DNA of 64,000 bases from Verrucomicrobiota bacterium (GTDB lineage Bacteria; Verrucomicrobiota; Verrucomicrobiia; Limisphaerales; CAIMTB01), in contig CAUJJW010000322.1 in NCBI GenBank assembly GCA_963205105.1, positions 1-64,000 of the forward strand. Direction: 5' to 3'. Position numbers and translations under genes: made by a program. The first letter of the stretch is position 1; each line of letters begins with the position of its first letter. Below are positions 37,044 to 43,921 of this stretch, in pieces. The notes beneath the pieces were generated by a model. That model did not search any database, was not told the DNA's origin, and saw only the letters and a list, made by a program, of their open reading frames with translations.

Positions 37044-39824
37044 TCATTGCACCTTCTTTTGTTGATCCGGCAAAACGCTGGGGTCGAACGGCAGATTGTC
37101 CGGCGTATGGACCGGGTTGCCTGCAGGATCGATGATCGTCGGGGTGATGAAGATGACGAGATTCCGTTTGGAAGCCGATGTGGACTCGGTTCGGAACAGG
37201 CGGCCGATCCAAGGAATATCACCAAGGAACGGAACCTTGTCCCTTTGCTTCCGGATGTCCTCGGAAATCAGGCCACCCAAAACAACCGTCTGACCATCCC
37301 AAACAATCGCCGAAGTGACCACCTGGCGGACACGCAGACGGGGCAGAGGAAGCTGAGCTGTGAGTGGTAGGCCGATCGCATTCCCCGCAGCACCTTGGAC
37401 CTGCGGAATGAAAAGTCCCGGGTCATCGTAGCCCAGAAACTCGCTAAAGGTGGGGATCAGTGTCAGTTCGATCGTGTACCCATCCGCGGCGACATACGGC
37501 ACGACATCCAAAACCGGTCCGAACGGGGTGATCTGGGTGATGTAGCCCACTTGGCTGCCAATGGCGCCAGCACCGCCGCCGATTCCTGCGCCACCACCCA
37601 CCTGCCCGCCGCCGCCACCAGCTGTCGCTTGCTGCAAGTCGACGCCCGTCACGATGGTTCGCAGGTCGTTGATTTGAACTTGCGCTTGCCGACCGGACAG
37701 GGTGGTCACGCGAGGAGCCGCCATCAGTTCAAGAGCGCCACGCTGTTCCAATGCACGGATCACCACTCGGAACTGAGGGTCGGTCATTAAGCCTGTGATG
37801 GTGCCCAAGGCAGGAATGCTGCCACCCTGGCTTCCAACGGTTTGACGAAGGCCGCCGGTCAGGACGTTGTCCGAGGCTTGAGAAGGAGTCGCCCCAGGTC
37901 CTGGAACGCCATTGGCGTCCGCAGGCCCGGGAAAGATTCCGCTAGGATTGGCAGCCGAGGAGCGCCCTTGGTAGGACGGAGCCGTGCCGGGCTGGACCCC
38001 GACTGCACCATTACCCAGCAACCAGTTACCAACCATCCAGTCGAAGCCAAGAGCCTTCAGGTCATCCTGACCTACTTCAGCGAATTTCGCCTCGATTTGG
38101 ATCATCGGCGGTGCCGCGTTAAGCACCTCGATCGCTTGCTCGACGATTTCAATCTCCTCCGTGGTGGCGCGCACCATGAGCAGACCCAAACGGTCGTTGA
38201 AAAACACAGCGTTAGGAGGGAGCAGGTTCACGCCGGCTGCGGCGAAGAACGTACGAACAACCTCCTGAACGGATTGAGCCGGCGTCGGGATGGTTACACC
38301 ACGCAGGCCGTTGCTACCTCCTCCTCCGCCGCCACCACCAATCCCACCACCGCCGCCACCGCCGCCACCGCCGCCAGCTCCACCGCCACCCTGTGCAACA
38401 CCGCTAACGAACACGCGTGGGATGATGGTGCCAATCGAGCCACCGCCTTGACCACCACCGCCTTGGCCGCCGCCACCACCGCCACCGCCACCGCCGGCAC
38501 CACCACCACCGGAGGTTCCGGTCTGGAAGTCACCAAATGTGATGCCAAGAACGCTCTCCAAACCCGACTCGAACGTGTTAGGATTCACGCGGAACACGCG
38601 AGTGATCAACTGGGCCCGTTCAGGCGCTTTGTGCAAGAATACGACGGCGTAGTCTTCAATGGTTATTTTGATCGGGCTTGAGGCTGACTTGGATACAGCA
38701 TCGATAACGTCGAGTAGTCGAACGTTGTTCAATGCTGGATCAATTCGAACGGTAACATCGTTCAAATTGATCTGTTCGGCCGCAGGAACAGCAATGGTTG
38801 CTCCCGTATTGGGGTCCGTTTGGAAGCCGGATGCCGATTGAACGTTGTCCTGATAGGGATTGATGAAGAAATTAATGCCCTGTTTGTCAGGGTCGCGAGC
38901 TTTCGCCTCATCCTTCAGATAGCGAACCACCTCGCTTAGTGGCAGTTCTTCAAACTTAACTTCGTCCAATTTGATTCGCTCCAGCTTGGACTTGATGACC
39001 TGTCTGCCCTTGCTTGTGTGAACGAGATTCGTTGTGGCGAACGGGTTTGCTGCCGGAAGATTATCTTTCGTGAGAGGCTTGTTCCAAACCTCGTCAATCA
39101 TCAGCAGACCGGAGCGGCTGAGGATGCCACGCCGCTTGTTCTCCAAGCGCATCTTGGCATCCAACAACTGCTTCATGTAGTAGTTGGCAGGCTCGTTGCC
39201 TGGATCGGCATCCAGAGCTTCCTTCAGCTTTGCCTCGGCTTTCGCGAGCTCCCCCGCGTCCAGAAAGACTCGAGCGTCCTGAACCAGAGTGCTGACCTGG
39301 ATTTTCTTTTCGTGAATCTCCGGGAGCTGGCCGAGCGCATCAGCGCTGGGAGTGAGCCCGCGTTTTTGGGCGATGGCCTTGTCGAGCTCCTGCTTGAGTT
39401 TCGCTGCCTCCTGATGAAGTGGGTCTACCTTCAGGACCCGGTCAACATGGGCAACAGCTTCATTGAGGTAGCCCCGTTTTTGTGCGCTTGCCGCCAGTTG
39501 CATTCGGGTGGCAGATACGCCGGCAGCGGCCCGGCCTCGTTCCGGATCGGCTTTGGCCCCTACGCGCAGAGCTAGTGCGTAGGCTTCCTCATATCGTCGC
39601 GCAGCATCGGAGATGCGGTTGGCGGCGACGTCTCGGTCAGCCTGCTGGAGCTTGCCTGCAAGGAGCTGATAAGCCTCCTCTCGGCGCGCACCTTCTTCAA
39701 TCGTTCCAGGCGGCGACGTTTGCGCCGAGGCATGGAGTGGAGCGCCCAGACTGAGAATCAGGGCCAACAGGGATACAGCAGCGTGGCGGGTCATGGAGCC
39801 GGGTTCAATGCGGGACAGAGACAT
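37044..39824 (-). CDS. Type IV pilus/type II secretion secretin (PilQ/GspD-like)
   Basis: 926 residues with a signal peptide (HAAVSLLALILSLGAPLHASA). Residues about 35-200 are helical TPR-like repeats (EAYQLLAGKLQQADRDVAAN, AEAKLKEALDADPGNEPAN). Next come N-domain modules (VRIDPALNNVRLLDVIDAVS), then a Gly-rich low-complexity insert at about 433-515, a further N-domain (EIEIVEQAIEVLNAAPPMIQ), and the secretin channel domain to the C-terminus with diagnostic VPFLGDIPWIGRLFR and KRNLVIFITPTIID. It would form the outer-membrane pore of a pilus or secretion system. ATG at 39824 has GAGAGG about 9 bases upstream and lies 13 bases after the preceding stop. The order fits pilMNOPQ. Confidence 0.92.
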   Translation of the reverse strand: MSLSRIEPGSMTRHAAVSLLALILSLGAPLHASAQTSPPGTIEEGARREEAYQLLAGKLQQADRDVAANRISDAARRYEEAYALALRVGAKADPERGRAAAGVSATRMQLAASAQKRGYLNEAVAHVDRVLKVDPLHQEAAKLKQELDKAIAQKRGLTPSADALGQLPEIHEKKIQVSTLVQDARVFLDAGELAKAEAKLKEALDADPGNEPANYYMKQLLDAKMRLENKRRGILSRSGLLMIDEVWNKPLTKDNLPAANPFATTNLVHTSKGRQVIKSKLERIKLDEVKFEELPLSEVVRYLKDEAKARDPDKQGINFFINPYQDNVQSASGFQTDPNTGATIAVPAAEQINLNDVTVRIDPALNNVRLLDVIDAVSKSASSPIKITIEDYAVVFLHKAPERAQLITRVFRVNPNTFESGLESVLGITFGDFQTGTSGGGGAGGGGGGGGGGQGGGGQGGGSIGTIIPRVFVSGVAQGGGGAGGGGGGGGGGGIGGGGGGGGSNGLRGVTIPTPAQSVQEVVRTFFAAAGVNLLPPNAVFFNDRLGLLMVRATTEEIEIVEQAIEVLNAAPPMIQIEAKFAEVGQDDLKALGFDWMVGNWLLGNGAVGVQPGTAPSYQGRSSAANPSGIFPGPADANGVPGPGATPSQASDNVLTGGLRQTVGSQGGSIPALGTITGLMTDPQFRVVIRALEQRGALELMAAPRVTTLSGRQAQVQINDLRTIVTGVDLQQATAGGGGGQVGGGAGIGGGAGAIGSQVGYITQITPFGPVLDVVPYVAADGYTIELTLIPTFSEFLGYDDPGLFIPQVQGAAGNAIGLPLTAQLPLPRLRVRQVVTSAIVWDGQTVVLGGLISEDIRKQRDKVPFLGDIPWIGRLFRTESTSASKRNLVIFITPTIIDPAGNPVHTPDNLPFDPSVLPDQQKKVQ
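38283..38525. repeat. GC-rich low-complexity tract (CCNCCN) encoding poly-Gly
   Basis: Inside the secretin gene, the + strand shows long runs of CCACC/CCGCC/CCTCC triplets, in two blocks separated by a short normal stretch (around VFVSGVAQ). On the coding strand they are Gly codons. Tracts like this are prone to replication slippage and length variation. Confidence 0.85.
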
Positions 39825-39837
39825 AAAAACGTACCTC

Positions 39838-40662
39838 TCAAGAAATACCCTTACGGCGGACGATCCAGCGCTTGGAGGTGCTGGACTGGACAGTAACTTC
39901 GTCCTTATTGATGGCAACGATATTGTAAGTTTGGGAGCCCAAACGGATTCCGCCGGGCTGCTTGGTGCGCACGTTATTGAATTTCGTTCCGAGCTTCTCG
40001 TGCACCATGTCCGCTTCATATCCGGCAACGCGCTTAAAGGCTTGCTCCCGGGTCACAGTTGCGGTTTCGGTGGAGTCGGCGAAACGAAATTCAACACCGG
40101 TCGGGTTGTCCGCTGGCCCCATGATCTTGGTAACCACGAACGGATCCGATTTCGATGAGGATCCCAATGCCAAGTACATTTGTCGCGGGCGTGCGGACCG
40201 CCCGCCTTTGGCTTCGTCCAGCACGTTGAACTTGTATCGGGTGCTTTCCCCGCTGGCCTGCACCCCGTCGAACTCAATCACAAGATGCAGCGGACGAATC
40301 GCCGTGGCGATCAGACCGCCTGGTCCGTCCTCGTCGCCGCGGACAACCTTGAACAGCGCCCCGTCCCGACCTCGCTTCCAAAGGACCGGGTTGAACAAAT
40401 TGTGTTCGCCGGAGAGGTTGAGTTTCGGCTGCGTCTTGAGACGCTTCATCATCGACTCGTAACCGGTCGTGTCGACGGGCTGGCTTTCCTTCTTTCGGGC
40501 TCGTTCGCCCAGTTCCAGGGCTTGCCGGATGGTTTCTCGGTTCTGAGCCACCCGAAAGGGGAGAAAACCCGCAGCTCCGAGCAAGGCCAAGAGAATCACG
40601 CTCAGGATGATCTTCTCGTAGTGGGCGCCAAACACGACGCCGAGTTTCTTGAGCTGGTCCAT
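39838..40662 (-). CDS. PilP-like inner-membrane accessory protein
   Basis: 274 residues with one N-terminal transmembrane helix (KIILSVILLALLGAAGFLPF, about 15-35) and a large periplasmic part with several beta-strand stretches (LHLVIEFDGVQASGESTRYK, ending IRLGSQTYNIVAINKDEVTV). The ending resembles the small beta-domain of PilP/GspC, which docks onto the secretin. Sequence similarity to PilP is weak by eye, so the call rests mainly on position between the PilO-like gene and the secretin. ATG at 40662, 13 bases after the preceding stop. It would sit at the position of Amuc_1099 of Akkermansia. Confidence 0.7.
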   Translation of the reverse strand: MDQLKKLGVVFGAHYEKIILSVILLALLGAAGFLPFRVAQNRETIRQALELGERARKKESQPVDTTGYESMMKRLKTQPKLNLSGEHNLFNPVLWKRGRDGALFKVVRGDEDGPGGLIATAIRPLHLVIEFDGVQASGESTRYKFNVLDEAKGGRSARPRQMYLALGSSSKSDPFVVTKIMGPADNPTGVEFRFADSTETATVTREQAFKRVAGYEADMVHEKLGTKFNNVRTKQPGGIRLGSQTYNIVAINKDEVTVQSSTSKRWIVRRKGIS

Positions 40663-40675
40663 GACGTCTTTCGCC

Positions 40676-41890
40676 TTATTCGGATGCAGGAGTCGAACTG
40701 TCGGCTCCTTGGGTTGCAGCATCCTCCGCCAGGGCCGAACGGGCGCCGCGCCGTGCGGTTTCCGGCTCAGGTTTTGGTTTGATGAAGTCGAGTTGAATGA
40801 TCACGCGGAGTGGCTTCTCGTCGAGGACCACGGAAGGCCCGGTAGGAGCCGCAGGGGCCGGAGTTCCGCTCATCATGGGCGTCGACAAGGATGGAGGTGG
40901 AGCTCCGGCCGTTCCGCCACCGATACCGTAGCGCGAACGCATGGCGGCCTCTCCCGAGCCTCCCCCAGGCCCCAAGCCGTAACGGGAGCGAAGGGCTGGA
41001 TCCATGCCCATGGCTCCACCGCCACTCTCGGCTGCAGAGCGAGAGCTTGGCCCGAGACCGTACCGCGACCGAAGGGCAGCATCCATTCCTCCGCCAGGGC
41101 CACCCGGAATAGGCGAGGTCTGGGTCGGCATGAACATGGTGGGCTGGCCTTGACCCGGGCCTTGGGAGGGCAGCGTTGTGGGCTCGATGTTGACGGTTTT
41201 GATCGCCACCACCTCTTGGAGCGACGCAAAGCCTCGAAGGACCCCGGCCAACTCGCTGCTGAACGCACGAAAGCTGAGGTCGTAAGGCGCCCGAACAATT
41301 AGATTTCGGTTGGTGACCGCCTTTTTGGTCAGATAATCGGTGCTACCGCCTTCATCCTTGAGAATGGCGGGACGACGAAGCTGATCCAATGAATGAACTT
41401 TGGCGTCGAACAACACACGGCAGAGAAGCGAGATCTGAGCCACCTGCTCAGCCAGTTTGGGGATCCCATTGGATTCAAACTGCGGCATTTCACGAAGCTT
41501 CTGAAAGGTAAAGGCATACCTGTCAGGCACATTCACTCCTGCTGCTTCCGCCTCCTTCTTTAGGTCGGATATCGTGGTCTCGATCAAAAGCTTGAGAGAG
41601 AAGGTGTCCGTCACCGGCTGAACGCTGGGCGATTTGATGCTTTCTCGAAGGGCAACCGTCAGCTTCTCCACTTTTGCGGCCTCATCCCGGACTGCCTTGA
41701 TGTTTTTTTCATCTGGATAGGGGTTGAGGCTGTTCAACCGGTTCCATTCCGTACGCTTCTCCTCAAGCTCCGCGTTGACGGTGGATTCTCGCGTGGATTG
41801 GGCGAAGAGGAAGAAGGCGCTCCCTCCAAGAAGCACCAATCCCACCAACCCGCCGAGAACGAGCGTCAGGTTCTTTTTGATCCACGGCAT
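40676..41890 (-). CDS. PilO-like protein with triple RYGL motif (Amuc_1100 position)
   Basis: 404 residues. One transmembrane helix near the N-terminus (LTLVLGGLVGLVLLGGSAFFLFA, 8-30) is followed by coiled-coil segments (about 35-115) and an alpha/beta periplasmic domain (to about 235) of PilO type. Residues 240-355 are a Gly/Pro/Met-rich linker with three copies of a 12-residue motif: DAALRSRYGLGP (270-281), DPALRSRYGLGP (297-308) and EAAMRSRYGIGG (314-325). The chain ends with a strand (LRVIIQLDFIKP) and an acidic tail. The layout resembles Akkermansia Amuc_1100. ATG at 41890, one base after the stop of the PilM/N fusion, so translation is coupled. Confidence 0.8.
   Translation of the reverse strand: MPWIKKNLTLVLGGLVGLVLLGGSAFFLFAQSTRESTVNAELEEKRTEWNRLNSLNPYPDEKNIKAVRDEAAKVEKLTVALRESIKSPSVQPVTDTFSLKLLIETTISDLKKEAEAAGVNVPDRYAFTFQKLREMPQFESNGIPKLAEQVAQISLLCRVLFDAKVHSLDQLRRPAILKDEGGSTDYLTKKAVTNRNLIVRAPYDLSFRAFSSELAGVLRGFASLQEVVAIKTVNIEPTTLPSQGPGQGQPTMFMPTQTSPIPGGPGGGMDAALRSRYGLGPSSRSAAESGGGAMGMDPALRSRYGLGPGGGSGEAAMRSRYGIGGGTAGAPPPSLSTPMMSGTPAPAAPTGPSVVLDEKPLRVIIQLDFIKPKPEPETARRGARSALAEDAATQGADSSTPASE
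40916..41083 (-). repeat. Triple 12-residue coding repeat (ALRSRYGLG)
   Basis: Three direct repeats of 36 bases within the PilO-like gene, at 41048-41083, 40967-41002 and 40916-40951. They keep the Arg-Ser-Arg-Tyr-Gly core and are separated by Gly/Ser-rich spacers of 15 and 5 residues. A related unit is found in the PilM/N gene at 42216-42251. Confidence 0.85.
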
Positions 41891-41891
41891 A

Positions 41892-43784
41892 CTAAAGCTG
41901 GATGGGGTTCTTCAGTCCGAGAGTCATCTCGAACGTAAAGGTGGGGGCGCCCTCCTCCGGAGTCGGCTGTTTGCCGAGGCGCGTGTTCTCCGGGTCGAAA
42001 AGTGGACTTGACCGCAATTCTTGCTCCACGGAAGCCGTGATGTGCAGATTGTTGGTCGGTGAGAGATTGGCCAAGTTCACGGCCCTAAACACCAGACTGA
42101 TTTCAGACACCTCGTTTGTGGAGCCGGACTTCTTTTTCTTCGCGGACGCCGCGGCGGGAGCCGTGTCGCCTCCGCCCCCATCGCCTCCATCACCCTCAGC
42201 AGCTACCGGCGTTGTTGGAATGAGCCCGTACCGCTTCATCAACTCCGGCGACATCCCGAAGGAAGCAGGCTTCGCCTCCTCTTCGGCGGGTGCTTCCTGG
42301 CTATCAGCAAATTCCTTCACGACATCGCCCATGCGCATCGATTCGATCCAGATTCCGACATCCACGCCAGGTGGCTTTGCCTTTTCTTCGGCCGCGAGCA
42401 GGGCATTGCGGAGCTCGCCAAAGAGATCGACCCACCGAAACTTCGCCTGGAGCCAATCTCGGTAATAGGTTGCCTCTTCCTCGGCCTTCTTCAGCGTCGA
42501 ATTGGCCGAGTTAAGTTGTTGCTCCTTCGATTGCAGTGGCTCGACCTTTTCAGCGATTTGGTTGAGCGCGGCTTCCTTGTCGTTGCCCACGGACCGCGCG
42601 AAGAATCCGAGAGCGGCCACCACACCCACGAGGCTGAACAACGAAGCCAACAGGTAAGGCTTCTTCTGATCGAACTGCTGCCTCTTGAGGGAGCTTTTGG
42701 GCAGCAGGTTCAATTCGATGGGACACTGGGCAAGATTCCGAAGAGCGAGCCCCACCAACTCCCCCATCCCGTGAGCCACGCCAGAAAGCTCGTCCACGTT
42801 GACGGCTGGTCCAATCTGGACGTTGCGGAGGGGGTTGAAGTACTCAACCGGCACGTTCAGTTTCTCGTTAAAGAACTGAGCAGTGTAAGGCATAATGGAA
42901 GCACCGCCCGACAGCACCAATCGCTGGGGTGCCCCCCCGCCCTGCTGGCCGCGATAGAACTGAATCGTCTGGTTGACCTGAATGTGGAGGCGGGTCATGA
43001 CCTGCCGGGCAACCTTCGCGATAGCGGCCTGCTTGGGATCCTCAGGCTCCTCATACGCGCCACCAAGACTGACGAGACCGTGCTGCAGCTTGAAGGATTC
43101 AGCCTCATTGAACCGAATTTTGGATTCGGTCGCAAAATCCTGGGTGATCGAATTGGCTCCAATGCTGATGCTGCGCGCGTAGATCTTGCCCTTCTCGAAG
43201 AACAGCACGGTGCTGGTCTTGGCGCCGATGTCCAAGAGCATCGTGCATCCATCCTGGTCGCTGTAATTGAAGCGAAAGGCGTTGGCGAGAGCAGCGGGAG
43301 AAACATCCACGTGCTGCAGGCGAACACCTTTGGATTCGGCGACTCGGAAAAGTCCTTCAACAATGTCGGTCTTGATCGCGACGAGCAGGACCTCCATCTC
43401 CCCACCGGCTGCGGTGCCTAGGATTTGATAGTCCCAGACAACTTCGGCCAGCGGGAACGGCACGTTCTGCTGGGCCTCATATTGGATGATCTGCGAGACC
43501 TTGGCAGAATCGACCGGAGGCAGTTTGACGAACTTCGAGAAGACGTGGAACCCAGGAGCGCAGACGCTGGCGGTGCGAGCGCTAAACCCGCGTTCTGAGA
43601 TCAACTCCTGAAGCCCCTTGGTCACCACGCGTTCCCGGGCCGTCTCCTGGGATCCTTCGAGGCCTAGTGAGCGGGTCCCAAATTGGCGCAGCACTAGATT
43701 CCCGGCGTCGTTGATCTCGAACTCGGCCAGCTTCAGCGTGCCGGCGCCGAAATCGATCGTGAGGAATGGCTTGGCTTTAAGCAT
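41892..43784 (-). CDS. PilM-PilN fusion protein
   Basis: 630 residues in two parts. Residues 1-350 are an actin/FtsA-like PilM ATPase domain: phosphate 1 DFGAGTLKLAEF, phosphate 2 LLDIGAKTSTVLFF, adenosine-like LVLSGGASIMPYTAQFF. Residues from about 355 are PilN-like: the characteristic cytoplasmic INLLP-type motif LNLLPKSSLKRQQ (358-370) that normally binds PilM, a transmembrane helix (YLLASLFSLVGVVAALGFFA), a coiled coil and a periplasmic alpha/beta domain. A linker contains SPELMKRYGLIP (512-523), related to the repeats in the PilO-like protein. The fusion keeps the PilM-PilN contact within one chain. ATG at 43784 was chosen as the start of the ATPase fold. It is the first gene of the pil-type operon. 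Confidence 0.88.
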   Translation of the reverse strand: MLKAKPFLTIDFGAGTLKLAEFEINDAGNLVLRQFGTRSLGLEGSQETARERVVTKGLQELISERGFSARTASVCAPGFHVFSKFVKLPPVDSAKVSQIIQYEAQQNVPFPLAEVVWDYQILGTAAGGEMEVLLVAIKTDIVEGLFRVAESKGVRLQHVDVSPAALANAFRFNYSDQDGCTMLLDIGAKTSTVLFFEKGKIYARSISIGANSITQDFATESKIRFNEAESFKLQHGLVSLGGAYEEPEDPKQAAIAKVARQVMTRLHIQVNQTIQFYRGQQGGGAPQRLVLSGGASIMPYTAQFFNEKLNVPVEYFNPLRNVQIGPAVNVDELSGVAHGMGELVGLALRNLAQCPIELNLLPKSSLKRQQFDQKKPYLLASLFSLVGVVAALGFFARSVGNDKEAALNQIAEKVEPLQSKEQQLNSANSTLKKAEEEATYYRDWLQAKFRWVDLFGELRNALLAAEEKAKPPGVDVGIWIESMRMGDVVKEFADSQEAPAEEEAKPASFGMSPELMKRYGLIPTTPVAAEGDGGDGGGGDTAPAAASAKKKKSGSTNEVSEISLVFRAVNLANLSPTNNLHITASVEQELRSSPLFDPENTRLGKQPTPEEGAPTFTFEMTLGLKNPIQL

Positions 43785-43921
43785 GGTGCCAGGAACGTTG
43801 CGTTGGCGCAGGCGACGCGACAACCGATCGCGCGTGAACGCCGAACGGGAGCAGGCGACGGGTGGTTAAAGGAAAGCAGTTCACAGGGCAAACTCAAAAA
43901 TCCCGCGTGGCTGTCGGGCCT

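Follow-up and report, generated by a model that had tools for sequence, protein, structure and literature searches.

A recurrent RYGL motif in the linkers of a pilus-like operon and of unrelated envelope proteins in the Limisphaerales

The pilus-like operon and its motif copies

The window analyzed here is a stretch of 64,000 nucleotides from a Verrucomicrobiota bacterium of the order Limisphaerales. It contained an operon on the minus strand that encodes a PilM/N fusion, a PilO-like protein, a protein in the Amuc_1099 position, and a secretin, and that is the counterpart of the Akkermansia Amuc_1098-1101 cluster (Table 1). The assignment was based on NCBIfam matches and on the Pfam models PilM_2 and Secretin, and the gene order (PilM-like, PilO-like, 1099-position gene, secretin) is that of Amuc_1098-1101; it was also retained in most of the loci fetched across the phylum. 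The PilM/N fusion, with a likely start Met at 43784, scored 489 bits against NF045709 (the Amuc_1101 family), under the curated cut-off of 650 bits, and on this comparison the protein is homologous to and syntenic with Amuc_1101, yet below the equivalog level. The PilO-like protein reached 78 bits over residues 1-259 against NF038287 (the Amuc_1100 family; curated cut-off 180 bits), which leaves it outside the curated family; judged from this match, it is a remote Amuc_1100 homologue at the same operon position. A comparison of the PilO-like protein with the PDB gave no relevant match. The PilO-like gene overlaps the next gene of the operon by 47 bases (40676-40722) in different frames, and in the secretin protein, long stretches rich in Gly precede the secretin domain (38300-38500, minus strand).

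Table 1. Genes, linkers, and motif copies of the pilus-like operon in the window.
Feature	Position	Strand	Evidence or remark
PilM/N fusion protein, Amuc_1101 homologue	41892..43823	-	NF045709 E=2e-146, PilM_2 E=2e-32
PilM/N low-complexity linker holding the motif, after the TM	42099..42311	-	periplasmic side by inference
Motif copy MSPELMKRYGLIP, PilM/N linker aa 524-536	42216..42254	-	profile match E=9.6e-10
PilO-like protein, remote Amuc_1100 homologue	40676..41890	-	NF038287 E=8e-22
PilO-like Gly/Pro/Ala-rich linker holding three motif copies	40814..41188	-	
Motif copy 1 MDAALRSRYGLGP, PilO-like linker aa 269-281	41048..41086	-	profile match
Motif copy 2 MDPALRSRYGLGP, PilO-like linker aa 296-308	40967..41005	-	profile match; AF2 helix 298-303
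Degenerate motif copy 3 GEAAMRSRYGIGG, PilO-like linker aa 313-325	40916..40954	-	sequence
Amuc_1099-position protein of the operon	39838..40722	-	no motif copy seen
Secretin (Amuc_1098-like) of the operon	37044..39947	-	no motif copy seen

A preliminary description of this DNA had reported three RYG[LI] copies in the PilO-like linker and one in the PilM/N linker, and all four were confirmed at the same positions on the minus strand. The motif is more widespread than these four copies indicate, since many other proteins of this genome also contain it.

Motif anatomy and conservation

The motif has the consensus [MLI]-[DS]-P-x-[LM]-x-x-R-Y-G-L-x-P, with MSPELMRRYGLVP as a representative peptide. 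Among 114 distinct instances, R0 and G2 were invariant, whereas the other columns were more variable (Y1 96%, L3 94%, L/M at -3 98%, P at -5 84%, D/S at -6 91%, M at -7 82%), and these column percentages are biased by the scoring that was used to collect the instances. When PilM/N linkers were picked by [RA]YG alone, the same columns were mostly prominent, and position -2 was also largely Met. The [D/S]-P pair would serve as a helix N-cap and G-L as a helix C-cap. On a helical wheel, M-7, L-3, R0, and Y1 span no more than 100 degrees, a sector that excludes the most variable positions (-4 and -1); this side-chain arrangement is as expected of a binding face. AF2 models built from two and four sequences, which were poor overall (mean pLDDT 52 and 39), showed both pilus linkers as coil save for one short helix each, coinciding with a motif copy. 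The flanks of the motif consisted of 75% disorder-promoting residues, compared with 57% across the whole carrier proteins.

The motif was also conserved in the orthologous pilus proteins of the order. The PilM/N linker carried it in all four genomes of the same genus, and one or both pilus linkers contained the motif or a degenerate form of it in many genomes of other families. When scored with a PSSM that was built from non-pilus proteins only, the PilM/N linker reached at least 12 bits in 13 of 35 genomes of the order (8 of 30 outside the genus) and the C-terminal half of PilO in 7 of 35, whereas the remainder of the PilM/N protein reached this score in none of the 35, and shuffled linkers in 0.03% of cases. 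The motif in the pilus linkers therefore exceeds chance. Within the genus, identity in PilM/N was 94.5% for the motif, 41% for the rest of the linker, and 85% for the folded part, such that the motif is more conserved than the disordered region around it, as is characteristic of short linear motifs. Two observations that the preliminary description had named as counter-evidence, absence of the motif from orthologous linkers and a motif that evolves as fast as its linker, were thus not borne out, the former by its presence in other families of the order and the latter by these identities. In the fetched loci from outside the order, Akkermansia-like genomes included, the pilus orthologues lacked the motif. 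This distinguishes the present operon from the Akkermansia Amuc_1098-1102 pilus-like cluster, which is abundant in the cell envelope (PMC5332112) and is otherwise the same operon, with proteins related to the two pilus carriers. In Pseudomonas PilO, conserved residues in an unstructured region affect pilus function (PMC5805733); these regions differ from the present motif in sequence and place, and belong to one protein family only.

Carriers beyond the pilus and their distribution

DNA patterns for the motif matched further contigs, both in this genome and in its congeners, and the matches lay in the linkers or tails of unrelated proteins. A 19-column profile with a cut-off of E<=0.01 detected 12 copies in the genome itself (best E 9.6e-10), a census made with a genome search whose first-look screen limits the candidates that are scored in the larger searches. 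The carriers, with family identities taken from Pfam, included a TPR-like protein with a signal peptide and two copies, a YfbK/vWA anti-sigma-like protein with several copies, a second YfbK-like protein, two ABC-2 permease-like proteins with the motif in their C-tails, and a 445-aa protein; a 2501-aa protein contained a weaker copy. The TPR-like and the first YfbK/vWA carrier both lie on contig 29, with a sensor kinase and a response regulator between them (locus L223, 5709-12848). A congener has a comparable row of a TPR-like carrier, a sensor histidine kinase, and a response regulator (L233, 3065-7225), and elsewhere a VIT/vWA protein adjoins a kinase, both with the motif (L289, 432-5656). 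Proteins of approximately 2500 aa with a pseudopilin/DUF1559-like stretch and one copy each were found at L227:3594-11096 and L315:2832-10304, both on the minus strand.

Carriers in other genomes of the order were CvpA-like proteins, M56/BlaR1 proteins, sensor kinases, bacterial alpha-2-macroglobulins, acetylxylan-esterase-like proteins, DUF1559-like proteins with a single TM, and VIT/vWA proteins. Two alpha-2-macroglobulins carried the motif (L317:2549-9175, plus strand, and L316), in L317 about 90 residues ahead of the A2M domain. In four esterase-like proteins (L283, L286, L288, and L290) it forms a loop insert between conserved stretches (LLLxP ... VIAIPDADQTPEQ). The one clearly cytoplasmic carrier is a threonyl-tRNA synthetase (L309:775-3177, minus strand), with SPELVNRYGLVP in a disordered N-terminal extension. 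Clustering of 105 carrier sequences with the motif masked gave 20 groups, approximately three of which were chance matches. About 15 unrelated protein families carry the motif in their linkers and tails. Matches left out as chance or as helices of ordinary folds comprised DUF1501 'DPKLVERYGKGDP' helices, a GT4-like glycosyltransferase (L313), a sugar-kinase-like protein (L271), an Opitutaceae oxidoreductase-like protein (L186), and a Cypionkella protein (L183).

Most carriers are predicted from their sequences to be extracytoplasmic at the motif. By positive-inside analysis, the motif was predicted to lie outside in the ABC-2 carriers and in most CvpA-like carriers; the simple topology script that was used assigned an inside location to two carriers, one M56 and one CvpA-like. 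In most of the other carriers, the motif followed a signal peptide or one N-terminal TM, as judged by eye and by hydropathy rather than by a trained predictor.

Matches to the profile were found in 40 of 191 genomes of the order outside the genus, with E down to 2.7e-8 and up to eight matches per genome, and the motif went undetected in about 80% of the sampled genomes of the order. Of 287 other genomes of the phylum, 6 had matches, all with E of 0.003-0.009, where about 3 are expected, and a reversed profile matched 1 of 192 genomes of the order, in a 25-aa frame. These two controls rule out a chance or low-complexity effect, and within the phylum sample the motif is confined to this order. 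Its recurrence in unrelated proteins beyond chance is a further property of short linear motifs. A strict DNA pattern that was searched in 84,980 bacterial and archaeal species returned 12 stretches, 10 of them in Verrucomicrobiota MAGs with real carriers and 2 by chance. The presence of the motif in PilM/N coincided with motifs elsewhere in the genome (4/8 versus 0/21 genomes; Fisher p=0.003 with no phylogenetic correction and with one genome excluded for a glycosyltransferase false positive, p=0.013 if that genome is counted), consistent with a trait at the level of the genome, for example the presence of a partner. Comparison of the motif profile with the PDB gave chance matches only, and nothing relevant was found in open-licence papers on RYGL and Verrucomicrobia, periplasmic motifs, or coding repeats.

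Possible function of the motif

The motif is almost certainly functional. That one motif is scattered through the linkers of over a dozen envelope families with no relation to each other suggests a common docking tag and an extracytoplasmic partner, and we give about even odds to a clade-specific short linear motif that folds as a capped mini-helix and docks its carriers to a shared periplasmic partner. Each copy would form a capped two-turn helix, with [D/S]-P as the N-cap and Gly as the C-cap, and the side chains of the conserved M, L, R, and Y, all on one face, would fit a groove of this common periplasmic partner. Disordered linkers would present this helix, and avidity could arise from the one to four copies that each protein contains. 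In this way, a single putative hub might tether or recruit pilus subunits, vWA/anti-sigma proteins, transporters, sensors, and inhibitors. The motif resembles short linear motifs and molecular recognition features in its shortness and conservation, in its setting within disordered and rapidly evolving linkers of proteins that are unrelated, and in its variable copy number and position; it differs in being longer than usual, extracytoplasmic, and limited to one bacterial order. Docking is weakened by the eight or nine preferred positions, which are many for a motif that arises repeatedly, by the cytoplasmic threonyl-tRNA synthetase, and by the large share of sampled genomes in which the motif went undetected. 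The idea of a short linear motif, as put forward in the preliminary description, stands insofar as the motif is conserved, helix-like, and located in disordered linkers, but its framing within the pilus does not, since most copies occur in unrelated envelope proteins.

The same description had named the secretin or another pilus subunit among the possible partners. The sharing of the motif by two neighboring pilus proteins in several families of the order is what would be expected if it bound such a subunit, with the other occurrences incidental. However, most copies lie in non-pilus proteins, with E down to 3e-10, the pilus machine is found throughout the phylum without the motif, and no RYGL copy was seen in the secretin or the Amuc_1099-position protein of the window. 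A pilus subunit is therefore less likely as the specific partner than a general extracytoplasmic one, and a pilus-specific motif is very improbable. Recognition by an extracytoplasmic enzyme, a protease or modifier acting at the invariant Arg-Tyr-Gly, is the main rival to docking, although we regard it as unlikely; cleavage or modification of the linkers would then control the pilus machine, sensors, and anti-sigma proteins. In favor of this reading, variation is lowest at R, Y, and G, the sites lie in exposed linkers, and some carriers are regulated proteins, such as the anti-sigma-like, BlaR1-like, and alpha-2-macroglobulin proteins. Nevertheless, 11 residues are conserved, including the helix caps and M-7/L-3, where cleavage sites usually need less, and transporters, pilus subunits, and enzymes are no obvious targets. 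A C-terminal sorting signal was rejected, since just 24 of 120 copies lie in the last 60 aa of their protein. LPXTG and PEP-CTERM type sorting signals are likewise one recurring peptide in many envelope proteins; by comparison, the present motif is internal, and no TM with a basic tail followed it in the carriers inspected.

Less probable than enzyme recognition is a structural element of the linkers, a self-capped mini-helix that would provide spacing or protease resistance in long disordered periplasmic linkers without any partner. The N-cap and C-cap signature, the short helices placed there by AF2, and the restriction of the motif to linkers agree with this, but R, Y, and L are conserved in a sequence-specific manner, more than capping requires, and the motif is present or absent at the level of whole genomes and occurs in one order only, although such linkers exist elsewhere. 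In Rickettsia, palindromic elements place one peptide inside many unrelated proteins. The present motif is similar in this respect and even occurs as a loop insert in an esterase family, as an element that copies itself in frame by insertion or by recurrent gene conversion, with no common function, would do. In contrast to the Rickettsia elements, the copies have no similarity at the DNA level, neither at synonymous sites nor in the flanks: codons at matched residues of the own-genome copies were identical in 32.7% of comparisons, against 30.7% expected from codon usage, and the flanking DNA between them was approximately 30% identical. Because the copies use independent codons, no DNA element was copied, and a mobile DNA element is largely refuted. 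The matches also lie almost all in one frame of long ORFs, and the motif is more conserved than its surroundings, so that a spreading element is highly doubtful. An internal translation start was rejected as well, since a Shine-Dalgarno-like sequence preceded the conserved Met in 10% of copies, with no excess over the background of 8%.

A broader form of the docking proposal is that the motif is an order-wide extracytoplasmic “address” peptide, read by a single putative receptor, that organizes the pilus, stress and anti-sigma sensing, transporters, and protease inhibitors; we hold this only tentatively, as somewhat less probable than docking as such. Linear-motif networks are a hallmark of eukaryotic signaling, and to our knowledge little is known of them in bacterial envelopes. 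If true, the address peptide would be a bacterial periplasmic analogue of the eukaryotic docking-motif networks. A motif common to more than a dozen unrelated envelope families implies a previously unrecognized hub or enzyme in a large and mostly uncultivated group. The motif peptide would serve as a bait that makes the hub directly findable, and many unannotated proteins of the order would be functionally linked.
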